From: Streptomyces sp. NBC_00654
GTDB taxonomy: Bacteria > Actinomycetota > Actinomycetes > Streptomycetales > Streptomycetaceae
Assembly: GCF_026341775.1 (NCBI RefSeq)
Contig: NZ_JAPEOB010000001.1
Span: forward strand, 1,736,001-1,800,000
DNA length: 64,000 nt
Direction of reading: 5' to 3'
The notes under the pieces are model-generated. The model did no database searches and was not told the origin of the DNA. It saw only the letters and a list, made by a program, of their open reading frames with translations. The first letter of the stretch is position 1. Every line of letters begins with the position of its first letter. Made by a program: the position numbers and the translations under genes. Positions 44,012 through 52,396 of the stretch are shown here, in pieces.

Positions 44012-45208
44012 TCAGCCGGCGGCGAGCCAGAGGTCCGGGCCGAACACCTCGTAGTGGATGTCGGACGCCCGGACGCCCGAGCCCAGCAGCTGGCCGCGGA
44101 CGGCGCGCATGAAGGGGAGCGGGCCGCAGAGATAGGCGTGCGTTCCGGGCAGGACGGTGATACCGGTCAGATCGACCGTCCCGGTGCGGCCGGCGGGGTG
44201 GCCGGGCTCCGGGTCCTCGTACCAGAAGTGCGCTTCGGCGCCGGGGAGTTCGCCGGTGAGCAGCGTGTGCTCGGCGCGCAGCGCGTGTGCGGCGGGCGAG
44301 CGGTCGCCGTGCACGACGGTGACGGGGGAGCGGTGGCCGGTGTCCACCAGGTGCTCCAGCATCGAGAGCATCGGGGTGCAGCCGATGCCCGCGGAGGCGA
44401 GCAGCAGGGGCGCGTCCGTGTGGTCGAGCACCAGATCCCCGTAGGGGACGGAGACGCGCAGCCGGTCGCCGGCCCGGGTGTGCTCGTGCAGCTGCCGGGA
44501 CACCTCGCCGTCCGGGGTCCCTTCCCCGCGGACCCGCTTGACGGTGATCGAGCGCAGCGGGGACCCGGGGGAGCGGGAAAGGCTGTACTGGCGTATCTGC
44601 CGGGCCCCGTCGGGCAGTTCCAGCTGTACGGAGACGTACTGGCCGGGCCGGAAGGAGGGAGCGGCGGTTCCGTCCACGGGGCGCAGCCGGAAGGTGGCGA
44701 CGTCCTCGGTCTCCTCGGTCCGGTCCACCACCTCCCACTCGCGCCACACATCACCGGCGACGACGCCCCGCTGGGCGTACAGGCGCTCCTCGATGGAGAT
44801 CAGCGCGCCCGCCATCAGCCAGTAGACCTCGTCCCAGGCGGCGGCGACCTCCGGAGTGACGGCGTCGCCCAGCACCTCGGCGATGGCGGCGAACAGATGG
44901 GTGTGCACCACCTCGTACTGTCCGGCGGTCACCCCGAGCGAGGCGTGCTTGTGGGCGATGCGGCCGAGCATCACGTCGGGACGGGTGTCCGGGTGCTCGA
45001 CCAGTTGGGTCGCGAAGGCGGCGATGGAGCCGGCGAGGGCCTGGCGCTGGGCGCCGGAGGCCTGGTTGCCGCGGTTGAAGAGGTCGCGCAGCAGCTCGGG
45101 GTGGGCGTCGAAGAGCTTGCGGTAGAAGAGGTCCGCTATCTCCCCGATGGCCGCGCCCACGGCGGGGAGGGTGGCACGGACGGTGGCGGTCGACGTCTCG
45201 GAGAGCAT
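44012..45208 (-). CDS. hmpA: flavohaemoglobin (nitric oxide dioxygenase)
   Basis: A 398-residue enzyme turning NO into nitrate. Globin domain (1-140) with B10 Tyr29 and proximal His88 (RIAHKHASLG); FAD domain with RQYSLSRSP; NAD domain with GIGCTPMLSMLEHL and the C-terminal YEVFGPD. ATG 45208 follows GAGGAG. It lies 154 bp downstream of nsrR on the same strand, with an NsrR-like half-site in the gap. Confidence 0.95.
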   Translation of the reverse strand: MLSETSTATVRATLPAVGAAIGEIADLFYRKLFDAHPELLRDLFNRGNQASGAQRQALAGSIAAFATQLVEHPDTRPDVMLGRIAHKHASLGVTAGQYEVVHTHLFAAIAEVLGDAVTPEVAAAWDEVYWLMAGALISIEERLYAQRGVVAGDVWREWEVVDRTEETEDVATFRLRPVDGTAAPSFRPGQYVSVQLELPDGARQIRQYSLSRSPGSPLRSITVKRVRGEGTPDGEVSRQLHEHTRAGDRLRVSVPYGDLVLDHTDAPLLLASAGIGCTPMLSMLEHLVDTGHRSPVTVVHGDRSPAAHALRAEHTLLTGELPGAEAHFWYEDPEPGHPAGRTGTVDLTGITVLPGTHAYLCGPLPFMRAVRGQLLGSGVRASDIHYEVFGPDLWLAAG

Positions 45209-45254
45209 CGGTGGACTCCTCAGGGTGGGATGACGGCGTAATTAATTGGTATGG

Positions 45255-45267
45255 GAGATGCGTATTT
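45255..45267 (-). promoter_or_regulatory. candidate NsrR half-site at hmpA
   Basis: GAGATGCGTATTT on the plus strand, 47 bp upstream of the hmpA start, resembles the AAGATGCATTT NsrR half-site of enteric bacteria. The flanking sequence is AT-rich for this genome and likely contains the promoter. Confidence 0.45.
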
Positions 45268-45362
45268 TTGGCCGCGACGGACCGCTCCGTGCGCTGACCC
45301 GCGTGCGGGCGCGGGGCGACGGAGTGCCGGAACGGTGGTGCGGGGGAGTGCGGCCCGGCGGG

Positions 45363-45809
45363 TCAGTCCGGTGCGGGGCGGGCGCTGATGCCTACCAGCA
45401 GCGGGCCGGTGGGGGAGACGACGAGTTCGGCGACGGTGACCGGGTCGAGGGTGGCGTAGAAGGCATCCTCGGCCAGGCGCAGGGCGCCGCGCAGACGACA
45501 GGCGGAGCGCAGCGGGCACGGGGTGTCGCCCTCGCACTCGACCACTTCGCCCGTACCCTCCAGTTCACGTACGAGCTTGCCGACCGAAGCGCGGTGGCCC
45601 GCCGAGGTGAGGGTGAGTCCGCCGCCGCGGCCGCGGCGCGCGTCGACCAGACCGAGGTGCTGGAGCCGGGCGACGACCTTGGCGGTGTGGGTGTACGGCA
45701 CCCGCATCGTGGCCGCCACCTCCCGGGTGGTCGGCGGATCGTCGTCCCGCGCGACGGCCAGTCGCATGAGCACGCGCAGTGCCACATCGGTGAATCTCGT
45801 CAGCCGCAT
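45363..45809 (-). CDS. nsrR: NO-sensing Rrf2-family repressor NsrR
   Basis: A 148-residue Rrf2 regulator. The winged helix spans 1-75, and the Fe-S ligands are Asp8 plus Cys92, Cys98 and Cys104 (ECEGDTPC...C), one residue offset from the numbering I recall for S. coelicolor NsrR. NO attack on its [4Fe-4S] cluster should derepress hmpA and nsrR itself. Confidence 0.93.
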   Translation of the reverse strand: MRLTRFTDVALRVLMRLAVARDDDPPTTREVAATMRVPYTHTAKVVARLQHLGLVDARRGRGGGLTLTSAGHRASVGKLVRELEGTGEVVECEGDTPCPLRSACRLRGALRLAEDAFYATLDPVTVAELVVSPTGPLLVGISARPAPD

Positions 45810-45830
45810 GGGCGCCAGAGTAGATAAGTG

Positions 45831-45849
45831 GCATCCAAGATGCAAATTA
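45831..45849 (-). promoter_or_regulatory. candidate NsrR operator at nsrR
   Basis: GCATC-CAA-GATGC inverted repeat followed by AAATTA, 22 bp upstream of the nsrR start. It shares GATGC plus an A/T run with the hmpA site. Confidence 0.5.
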
Positions 45850-45987
45850 ACCGGAGCGCCGGGCGACACGGAACACCGTGCCCCGACTTGGGCCCGGTTA
45901 GTCACACTCATTTGTGTAATGGCGCTGCGACTCATCGTGCTGAAAGGCTTCTTCGCGCAGGTCAGTCCATGATCGAAAGGACGTCAG

Positions 45988-47394
45988 ATGTCCGTTGGTG
46001 AAGAGGTTCGCGACACGCAGGGCCCGCCGCAGCAGAGTCTCGGCACGGCCGCTGCGCGGAACCTCGCGACGACCACCAAATCCGCGCCGCAGATGCAGGA
46101 GATCACCTCGCGGTGGCTGCTGCGCATGCTGCCGTGGGTGCAGGTGCAGGGCGGCACGTACCGGGTGAACCGACGGCTCAGCCACGCGGTGGGCGACGGC
46201 CGGGTGACCTTCGTGCAGACCGGCGACCAGGTCGCCGTCATCCCCGCCGAGCTCGGGGAACTGCCCGCGCTGCGGGACTTCGGCGACCAGGAGGTCCTCG
46301 CCGAACTGGCCCGCCGGTGCGAACAGCGGGAAGTCGCCGCGGGAGAGGTGATCGCCACCGCGGGGGACGCGGCGGACCGGGTCCACCTGCTGGCGCACGG
46401 CAAGGTGGAGAAGGTCGGCTCCGGTCCGTACGGGGACGAGGCGGTGCTCGGAGTCCTCGCCGACGGCTCGTACTTCGGCGACCACAGTCTGGTCGACGGT
46501 GACGCCGCCTGGGAGTACACCACCCGCGCCCTCACCCCCTGCACGCTCCTGACCCTGCGCCGCGCGGACGTGCTCAACCTCGCGGACCGCGCCGATTCCC
46601 TCCGGGATCATCTCGCCGGTGTGCTCTCCATCCCGCAGCAGCGGACCAACCACTACGGCGAGGCGGCGATCGATCTCTCCGCGGGCCACGTGGGAGAAAC
46701 GGTTGTCCCGCACACCTTCGTCGACTACGACGCGGCGCCGCGCGAGTACGAACTGAGCGTGGCCCAGACCGTGCTGAAGGTGCACAGCCGGGTCGCCGAT
46801 CTCTACAACCAGCCGATGAACCAGACCGAGCAGCAGTTGCGGCTCACGGTCGAGGCGCTGCGCGAGCGCCAGGAGCACGAGCTGATCAACAACCGTGAGT
46901 TCGGGCTGCTGAACAACTGCGACTACGGGCAGCGGATCCAGCCGCACGACGGGGTGCCCAGCCCCGACGACATGGACGAACTGCTGTCGCGCAGGCGGGG
47001 TTCGAAGATGTTCCTCGCCCATCCGAAGGCCATCGCCGCCTTCGGCCGCGAGTGCAACCGGCGCGGTCTGGTGCCGGAGAGCGTGGACATCGGCGGCCAC
47101 CATGTGCCGGCCTGGCGCGGGGTGCCGATCTTCCCGTCCAACAAGATCCCGGTCAGCGACACCCGCACCACGTCGATCATCTGCATGAGGACCGGCGAGG
47201 CCGAGCAGGGCGTCATCGGACTCCAGCAGAGCGGCATCCCGGACGAGATCGAGCCGAGCCTCTCGGTCCGCTTCATGGGCATCGACGAGCAGGCGATCAT
47301 CTCCTACCTCGTCACCGCGTACTACTCCGCCGCGATCCTCGTCCCGGACGCCCTCGGCGTACTGGAGAACGTCGAAGTGAGCCGCTGGCACTGA
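45988..47394 (+). CDS. eshA: EshA: family-2B encapsulin shell protein with cNMP-binding domain
   Basis: A 468-residue shell protein. The N-terminal arm (1-90, [26 protein letters not shown]) and the C-terminal HK97-type part (about 225-468) carry family-2 encapsulin sequences such as [25 protein letters not shown] and [15 protein letters not shown]. Between them sits a cyclic-nucleotide-binding domain (about 95-215, [23 protein letters not shown]). EshA is known in S. griseus and S. coelicolor for growth of sporogenic hyphae. ATG 45988 follows AAAGGA. The next gene is a polyprenyl synthase, one of the recognised family-2 cargo classes. Confidence 0.92.
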
Positions 47395-47400
47395 CCCCTT

Positions 47401-47436
47401 CGGCGGGCCGGGCGGCGCGGGCCGCCCGGCCCGCCG
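47401..47436 (+). terminator. intercistronic hairpin eshA-polyprenyl synthase
   Basis: A 16-bp perfect G/C stem (47401-47416 with 47421-47436) with a GCGG loop begins 7 bp after the eshA stop and ends 39 bp before the next start. It is likely a partial terminator or 3' stabiliser that sets shell production above enzyme production. Confidence 0.65.
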
Positions 47437-47474
47437 CCCCGCCCGTATCCACCGCACCCACAGGGGGAGTGACC

Positions 47475-48524
47475 ATGACCATGACGAGTACGGACGCCAC
47501 GACGGAAGGGCACGAGGCCGCGGTGCTCCTGGAGCGCACCCGCGACATCGTCGACCCGCACCTGCGATCGGCGGTGGAATCGCTGCCCGGCGGGATACGC
47601 CGAGTCGCGATGTACCACTTCGGCTGGGAGAACGCGGACGGCACCCCGGCCGACGGGCAGGCCGGCAAGGCCATCAGACCCGCGCTGGTACTGGCCGCCG
47701 CCAGGGCGCTGGGCGGTGACCCGGACCAGGCGCTGCGGGCCGCCGTCGCCGTGGAGCTGGCGCACAACTTCACGCTGCTCCACGACGACGTCATCGACGA
47801 GGACACCACCCGCAGGCACCGGCCCACGGCCTGGGCGGTCTTCGGTATCCCGGACGCCGTCATCGCGGGCGACGCCCTGCTCGCCCTCGCCCAGCGGCTG
47901 CTGGCGGAGGACCCGCACCCGGCCTCCGCCCGCGCCTCCGCGCGGCTCGCCTCGTGCGTGATCGAGCTGTGCGCCGGACAGCAGGCCGACTGCGCCTTCG
48001 AGGAGCGCGGCCCCGAGGAGGTCTCACTGGACGAATGCCTCGCCATGGCGACCGCCAAGACCGGCGCCCTGCTCGGCTGCGCGTGCGCGCTGGGCGCGCT
48101 CTACGCCGGGGCGGGGGAACGGGCCGTCGGCGCGATGGACGGCTTCGGGCGCGAGGCGGGTCTCTCCTTCCAGCTCATCGACGACCTGATCGGCATCTGG
48201 GGCGACCCGGCCCGGACGGGCAAGCCGGTCGGGGCGGATCTGGCCGCCCACAAGAAGTCCCTGCCGGTGGTGGCGGCGCTCACCTCCGGTACCCCCGCCG
48301 CCGCCGAACTCGCCGCGCTCTACCGGGGCGCCATGAACACCCGCGGCGAAGTGGAGCGGGCAGCCGACGCCGTCGAGCTGGCCGGTGGCCGGGACTGGGC
48401 GCAGGTCTGCGCGGCCGACCGGATGGCACGCGCGGTGCACCATCTGTCCCGGGCGGTGCCCGACCCCGCCGCGGCGGGCGATCTGCTGTCGCTGGCCGAA
48501 TTCGTCACGCGCCGGACCCACTGA
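47475..48524 (+). CDS. polyprenyl (geranylgeranyl-type) diphosphate synthase, probable encapsulin cargo
   Basis: Trans-prenyltransferase of 349 residues condensing IPP with allylic diphosphates. The first Asp-rich motif is LLHDDVIDED and the second is FQLIDDLIGIWGD, with the substrate lysine/arginine in GKAIRPALVLAAA and GADLAAHKKSLP. ATG 47475 lies five bases after AGGGGGAG. Only about 15 residues precede the first helix, so there is no long disordered targeting extension. Its position behind eshA suggests encapsulation. Chain length cannot be set from sequence alone. Confidence 0.9.
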   Translation: MTMTSTDATTEGHEAAVLLERTRDIVDPHLRSAVESLPGGIRRVAMYHFGWENADGTPADGQAGKAIRPALVLAAARALGGDPDQALRAAVAVELAHNFTLLHDDVIDEDTTRRHRPTAWAVFGIPDAVIAGDALLALAQRLLAEDPHPASARASARLASCVIELCAGQQADCAFEERGPEEVSLDECLAMATAKTGALLGCACALGALYAGAGERAVGAMDGFGREAGLSFQLIDDLIGIWGDPARTGKPVGADLAAHKKSLPVVAALTSGTPAAAELAALYRGAMNTRGEVERAADAVELAGGRDWAQVCAADRMARAVHHLSRAVPDPAAAGDLLSLAEFVTRRTH

Positions 48525-51715: not shown

Positions 51716-52396
51716 TCAGGAGGTGGCGCGGGCCAGCGCGGCCGCGAAACCGTTCTGCCACAGGTAGTTCACCTGCGACTTCTCGCTCGCGTTCGGGTAG
51801 GCGTTGGTGCAGGACGTGCCGGGGCCGCCGCCCGACATGAGCTCGCTGCACGGACCGGAGTAGTGGTCCGGAAGGCCGAGCACGTGCCCGGTCTCGTGGG
51901 CCGTGACCCGGGTCGAGTCGTACTGCTGGTTCTGCGCGTAGTCGAGGAAGATGTACCCGTTGCCGTGCCCGTCGGTGCTCGCGTACGAGCCTCGCGAGTC
52001 ATTGCCCTCGTAGTAGGTGAAGTCGGCGTTGGAGCCCTGCTGGAGCTTGACGTTGGAGACCGAGCTGTTCCAGATCTGCGCGCTGCTGGCTATCTGGCTG
52101 CTGAAGCTCGGGGCGTTGGAGGCGTTGTAGACGACGGTGACCGCCTGCGTGCCCGGGTTGGCGGCACGCTTCTCGGCGACGGACTTCACCACCGCGTCGA
52201 AGAACGCCCGGTTGGCCGCGGCGTTCTCGCTGGACCCCTCGTACGCGGCGAAGCTCGCCTGGGTGCCGGCCGCGGAGCCGGTGGGTGCGACAGGGGCCGG
52301 AGCCGAGGCGAGCGCCGGTGCGGTGCCCAGTGCGGCGACGAGCCCGAAGCCGATGCCGACGACGGCCGAGGCGAAGGCGGTCCTGGAGTTTCTCAT
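51716..52396 (-). CDS. snpA: snapalysin-type secreted zinc metalloprotease (M7)
   Basis: A 226-residue preproprotein: signal peptide (1-31), short propeptide, then the M7 domain. The extended zinc motif [11 protein letters not shown] (His, His, Asp ligands) and the Met-turn SELMSGG are intact, and two further cysteines form the expected disulfide (GPC, TSC). ATG 52396 follows TAGGAG. It is divergent from a LysR regulator, the standard snpA/snpR (mprA/mprR) arrangement. Confidence 0.93.

Follow-up and report, generated by a model that had tools for sequence, protein, structure and literature searches.

A stretch of 64,000 nucleotides from the genome of Streptomyces sp. NBC_00654 (the window) carries a gene for an encapsulin shell protein, followed on the same strand by a gene for a polyprenyl diphosphate synthase (PT), which raises the question of which enzyme, if any, this shell serves. 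Operons of a Family 2B shell and a PT form a published class (PMC8346489, PMC8049743), and the pair in the window is a widespread member of it. Two features of the system are not captured by the class description: the PT is dispensable, and the presence of geosmin synthase tracks that of the shell from genus to genus, also without linkage of the two genes. The features on which this account rests are collected in Table 1.

Table 1. Features of the shell locus in the window and of the geosmin synthase gene in the same genome.
Feature	Position	Strand	Details and basis
Conserved blocks 5' of the shell gene	45898..45950	+	alignment of 26 loci
Family 2B encapsulin shell gene, most likely of EshB type	45988..47394	+	468 aa, ATG start; NF041163, Pfam and PDB matches
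Insertion with cyclic-nucleotide-binding fold	46327..46590	+	shell residues 114-201; Pfam cNMP_binding PF00027, 62.3 bits
Perfect 16-bp hairpin in the shell-PT intergenic gap	47401..47436	+	no T run after it; fold z-score
PT gene	47475..48524	+	349 aa; NF041169, Pfam polyprenyl_synt, AlphaFold2 model
First Asp-rich motif, DDVIDED	47784..47804	+	PT residues 104-110
Second Asp-rich motif, DDLIGIWGD	48180..48206	+	PT residues 236-244; DDxxG, not DDxxD
Two-domain geosmin synthase	G000:C2:706703-708913		contig other than that of the shell

The shell gene, its product and its surroundings

The shell protein matches the NCBIfam model for Family 2B shells (NF041163) with 772 bits over residues 17-466, against a cut-off of 400, and the Pfam SrpI-like domain PF19307 with 458 bits over residues 216-465. 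Among solved structures, it aligns with 9bhu (681 bits, over residues 11-467), 9bje (623.5 bits), 9bix (606.4 bits) and SrpI 6x8m (303.8 bits; E 2e-89). We take 9bhu to be the EshA/2-MIB encapsulin, while 9bje and 9bix are presumably the two-component Family 2B encapsulin of S. lydicus. The AlphaFold2 model of the shell has a mean pLDDT of 53.7, too poor for a fold search, and the SrpI-like (HK97-type) domain of the protein is thus assigned from its sequence alone; icosahedral assembly would follow by analogy with the solved relatives. The genome contains one 2B shell gene.

The Arg of the phosphate-binding cassette is essential for cyclic-nucleotide binding. In the inserted fold of the window shell, its position is occupied by Trp175; the corresponding stretch of a Crp-like protein encoded in this genome is GPRTAT (the two were paired by eye, with one inserted residue). 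This Trp is found in 173 of 174 EshB-class shells and 59 of 62 other 2B shells, or 232 of 236 distinct 2B shells in total, where, as in the motif counts below, open reading frames covering less than 85% of the query were left out (shell, 6/270; PT, 5/189; geosmin synthase, 16/128). Nucleotide gating is unlikely, since the 2B insertion domain has been reported not to bind cyclic nucleotides (PMC12407261) and the cassette residues agree with that report. A preliminary description of the locus had identified a Family 2B shell with a cyclic-nucleotide-binding domain inside it, which the NCBIfam match and the two Pfam domains bear out, and had further called the shell nucleotide-gated, a term that finds no support here.

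The same description named the protein EshA and quoted a developmental role for it. The name EshA belongs to the shell encoded in the 2-MIB operon (SCO7699, with SCO7700-7701; vnz_35035-35045) (PMC3878966, PMC5839063, PMC6428758), and its paralogue SCO5249 is EshB (PMC3878966); SCO5250 has been included among the isoprenoid pathway genes (PMC7494193). The window shell adjoins a PT, with no PF19086 cyclase match closer than about 245 kb, and this context fits the pair of SCO5249 and SCO5250. In the shell tree it falls in the EshB-class clade; in 70 genomes, EshB-class shells are at least 75% identical, against at most 69% for paralogues. Judged from its gene context, the shell is most likely EshB (SCO5249 type) and not EshA, and the developmental role quoted for it belongs to EshA.

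The conserved blocks 5' of the shell gene are probably a promoter or activator site, and a weaker form of them precedes most other EshB-class shells. The first block has no other site in the genome at two or fewer mismatches, and in a regulon search of this genome with the promoter block the sole exact match was the shell gene itself; at three mismatches there were five other sites, versus three for a backward control. The hairpin between the shell and PT genes has a fold z-score of -2.47 against 200 dinucleotide shuffles and might determine how much of each product is made relative to the other.

Divergent from the shell gene, positions 44012-45848 hold genes for a flavohemoglobin-like protein and an Rrf2-type (NsrR-like) regulator, both identified by reading the sequence. 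A palindrome at 45826-45848, conserved in 26 aligned loci, adjoins the start of the regulator gene. Control of the shell by NO was rejected as a general feature, as the palindrome lies away from the shell block and the Rrf2-type gene lies in the fetched stretch of only 28 of 100 loci. By eye, the translation of positions 51716-52396 on the minus strand resembles a secreted metalloprotease of the snapalysin type.

The adjacent synthase and its loss

Taken mechanically, the PT reading frame begins at 47052, within the shell gene. The start chosen is the ATG at 47475, which follows a Shine-Dalgarno-like GGGGGAG, with a GTG at 47469 and an ATG at 47481 as alternatives. The protein matches the NCBIfam model for polyprenyl transferase cargo of family 2 encapsulins (NF041169) with 498.6 bits (cut-off 450), and its second-best match is the IdsB GGPP synthase model (376.1 bits, under the cut-off of 475). 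Among solved structures, its AlphaFold2 model (mean pLDDT 91.0) matches best the S. coelicolor polyprenyl synthetase 3nf2 (43% identity), and GGPP synthases come next; the PT is probably a GGPP-type (C20) enzyme. In the second Asp-rich motif, D236, D237, L238 and G240 are invariant across 13 aligned PTs.

A disordered N-terminal domain of 50-100 residues is reported to be typical of PT cargo (PMC8346489). In the predicted structure of the window PT, residues 1-9 are the single stretch with pLDDT below 50, and by this model the enzyme has no disordered tail. Tail calls on 101 PTs, including that of the window, gave 40 short and 57 long, with no call for 4, and this split is rough because the caller chose doubtful start codons at some loci; at least six of the long calls look short by eye (L084, L087, L119, L150, L161, L169). 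In the PT tree, 12 long-tailed sequences sit in one clade together with 3 divergent ones, thus the short form is probably the older. Where a PT accompanies both a shell and geosmin synthase in another family, its tail is short in 4 of 5 cases. An ERRxPI-like motif, considered as a common element of long tails, was seen in a minority and dropped.

A same-strand shell lies upstream at 99 of 100 PT loci, which were drawn from the best-scoring PT matches and are syntenic with one another. Among the named shell loci, 80 were returned, of which 4 were too short and left out; a whole PT adjoins the shell in 72 of the 76 with at least 1.5 kb downstream of it. Because the two genes are paired at these frequencies from either side, their association is not due to chance. 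The preliminary description had presented the synthase as following the shell directly, complete with both Asp-rich motifs and without a long tail, and all of this stands, with the second motif read as DDxxG.

The pairing is not obligatory. Among 295 genomes of the genus, 289 have a match above the cut-off of the shell model and 227 have one above that of the cargo-PT model. The best cargo-PT match is weak (E >1e-135) in 69 genomes (68 are under the cut-off by the search tally), and 18 of these have an EshB-class shell (75-91% identity; paralogues at most 69%). No whole PT stands next to the shell in 12 of the 18. Beside these shells, PT sequence is absent within 1.5 kb in ten cases, four of which have geosmin synthase nearby; two others have deletion remnants, two have broken frames, one has a partial match and three have a divergent whole PT. 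At L179 (G236) and L182 (G101), PT remnants with differing internal deletions lie downstream of intact EshB-class shells. In S. griseus NCTC13033 (L381), the shell and the PT adjoining it are each 90% identical to those of the window; in S. griseus BIG105 (L420), the shell is present but no PT accompanies it.

On the shell tree, well supported branches force at least six changes of the PT-less label, in a quick tree and with a label that takes in rows with divergent or broken PTs. Values of dN/dS are 0.09-0.20 in seven comparisons with PT-less shells and 0.12-0.16 in two PT-bearing pairs; PT-less shells remain under purifying selection, and the PT is a dispensable partner of the EshB-class shell. 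In several lineages the shell has persisted after the PT was lost, so the PT alone cannot account for its existence. The reverse situation, a PT without its shell, occurs once in 100 loci (L139, in G076), where the promoter block now stands before the PT, and this genome has a paralogous shell elsewhere.

A geosmin synthase gene on another contig

The two-domain geosmin synthase of the window's genome scores 1188.9 bits against the NCBIfam model for terpene cyclase cargo of family 2 encapsulins (NF041168; cut-off 1200), and its gene lacks the conserved promoter block of the shell. In a class-wide sample of 394 actinomycete genomes, geosmin synthase is found in 92 and a shell match in 100. Of the genomes with geosmin synthase, 91 have a shell match, and in the 92nd (G388) a contig end truncates the shell; the shell occurs in 9 of the 302 without geosmin synthase, a comparison uncorrected for phylogeny. 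Counted by genus, and again uncorrected for phylogeny, the shell is present in 20 of 20 genera with geosmin synthase versus 1 of 117 without it. The one control gene, ectoine synthase, was present in 10 of 40 non-Streptomyces genomes in which shell and geosmin synthase co-occur (sampled from 52) versus 2 of 40 non-Streptomyces genomes with neither gene (sampled from 293).

Within the 295 genomes of the genus, geosmin synthase is missing in 5 of 6 genomes without a shell versus 3 of 289 with one (Fisher p 1.9e-8, uncorrected for phylogeny), where the shell-less genomes include G050, which is 82% complete, and G102, which has a partial geosmin synthase and about 1420 contigs. The three Streptomyces with a shell and no geosmin synthase are G099, G265 and G273, the last of which also lacks the PT. 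It is the one exception among eight PT-less genomes tested, the other seven of which have geosmin synthase. Further 2B shells are present in many Streptomyces and could therefore host geosmin synthase instead of EshB; an EshB-class shell is the single shell match in 11 of the 40 Streptomyces of the class sample, with the best four candidates per genome scored.

Physical linkage of the two genes varies. Among 26 geosmin synthase loci fetched from outside Streptomyces, 15 have a shell in the stretch, of which 5 also have a PT, and the other 11 have no shell in the stretch yet a shell match in the genome. Among 77 further loci with flanks of at most 1.5 kb, L266 and L281 have a shell in the flank, and the other 75 have none there. 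At L343 (G204) and L344 (G051), an EshB-clade shell lies directly upstream of geosmin synthase, which takes the place of the PT. At L350, an EshB-clade shell is downstream of geosmin synthase, and at L349 it is divergent, with the geosmin synthase frame broken.

The sequence GPTGLGTSAAR has been proposed as the targeting sequence of terpene cyclase cargo in Family 2B systems (PMC8346489). It is present exactly (GGPTGLGTSAARVTRL) at the C-terminus of the geosmin synthase of the window's genome, which ends in GGPTGLGTSAARVTRLMAQLSGSSV. The motif or a close variant of it occurs in the interdomain linker or at the C-terminus in 102 of 109 distinct geosmin synthases, compared with 3.2 on average, and 11 at most, in shuffled regions. 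A narrower first pattern had found 90 of 109; the pattern was widened after variants had been seen, and the shuffles were run with the wide one. Encoded beside a shell, 24 of 24 geosmin synthases have the motif, and so do 78 of 85 others (after correction for L266 and L281). In L224, L268, L269, L273, L275 and L277, there is no C-terminal motif, and a GPGTSAAD version is kept in the interdomain linker. The seven geosmin synthases without the motif include that of G238, where EshB is the sole shell found and the PT is gone; the absence of the motif in this genome is therefore a point against loading in trans.

A proposed terpenoid-enzyme compartment and its alternatives

Taken together, these observations suggest a model in which terpenoid enzymes would be housed in a compartment assembled from the EshB-type shell. 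A frequent though dispensable partner or client would be the PT, probably a C20 synthase, which would not depend on a disordered tail, and geosmin synthase, encoded elsewhere, would enter in trans through its GPTGLGTSAAR motif; enclosure may confer a benefit, and geosmin synthase may be the client that best explains the persistence of the shell. In this general form, with the PT as an optional partner or client and geosmin synthase as a client in trans, the model seems to us evenly balanced between right and wrong. The more specific proposal, that EshB is an overlooked compartment of geosmin biosynthesis in Streptomyces with geosmin synthase as its main client in trans and the tail-less PT as an optional one, is tentative, and we hold it with slightly less than even confidence. 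Geosmin is made from FPP, and since the PT looks like a GGPP synthase, a metabolic link between the PT and geosmin is doubtful. In the open-licence literature, which does not include the 2-MIB shell paper, no statement of geosmin synthase as a trans client of EshB in Streptomyces was found.

Other readings place the PT differently. The shell could enclose the adjacent PT and nothing else, with loading by the folded enzyme or its first helix in place of a tail. Enclosure of the PT is also the reading of the preliminary description and of the published class; the adjacency at 99/100 and 72/76 loci, the cargo label in NCBIfam and the published class (PMC8346489) are in keeping with this. We nevertheless consider it distinctly unlikely, given that 12 of 18 genomes keep the shell at low dN/dS with no whole PT beside it, and that this PT lacks the disordered domain of 50-100 residues that PT cargo is reported to have. 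Conversely, the PT may not be enclosed at all and may work as a cytosolic neighbour in the same pathway, with terpene cyclases as the sole clients of the shell. Its lack of a tail would be expected in that case, as would the unrelaxed constraint on the shell after loss of the PT and the retention of PT and promoter block at the G076 locus from which the EshB gene has gone, although the paralogous shell of that genome means that its PT may still have a host. The near-universal pairing and the placement of a PT between shell and geosmin synthase in another family also speak against a purely cytosolic PT, which appears doubtful.

It could also be that EshB has no enzyme cargo and acts, for example, in development or the stringent response, with the co-occurrence of geosmin synthase mirroring shared descent in actinomycete lineages. 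In line with this, the promoter of SCO5249 is up-regulated during development (PMC3878966), the gene appears in a table from a transcriptome of differentiation (PMC3610822), a review connects EshA with ppGpp (PMC6627660) and three shell-bearing Streptomyces lack geosmin synthase. Against such a role stands the coincidence of 20/20 versus 1/117 genera, which holds even where the genes are far apart and is not seen with ectoine synthase, and we regard it as unlikely. If the trans-client reading is correct, geosmin, the compound that gives soil its earthy smell and one of the best-known bacterial natural products, would be produced inside or on a protein shell in most Streptomyces, the cargo of Family 2B shells would no longer be predictable from gene neighbours alone, and the retention of the shell after loss of the PT would be explained. 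Even if the trans-client reading is wrong, the correction of the name and the tail-less PT remain, and natural strains with the shell alone or the PT alone offer direct tests of loading.

Compared with the Family 2B PT operons already described (PMC8346489, PMC8049743), the locus shares the inserted cNMP fold and the adjacent PT, and both of its proteins pass the corresponding NCBIfam models; it differs in that the PT there is reported typically to have the disordered N-terminal domain. EshA (SCO7699, vnz_35035) belongs to the same shell family, as the 681 bits against 9bhu show, but is encoded in a 2-MIB operon, whereas the window shell stands with a PT and has no terpene cyclase match nearby. 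The Family 2B encapsulin of S. lydicus (PMC12407261) is of the same shell family as well (623.5 and 606.4 bits) and has two components, in contrast to the single 2B shell gene in this genome. Closest to the proposed partnership are the myxobacterial geosmin clusters, which contain encapsulins (PMC12224551), and the geosmin-synthase-like cyclases of family 2 encapsulin systems (PMC8346489): the same two components and a GPTGLGTSAAR-type motif recur, and while those clusters pair geosmin synthase with an encapsulin, the genome of Streptomyces sp. NBC_00654 encodes its geosmin synthase on another contig.
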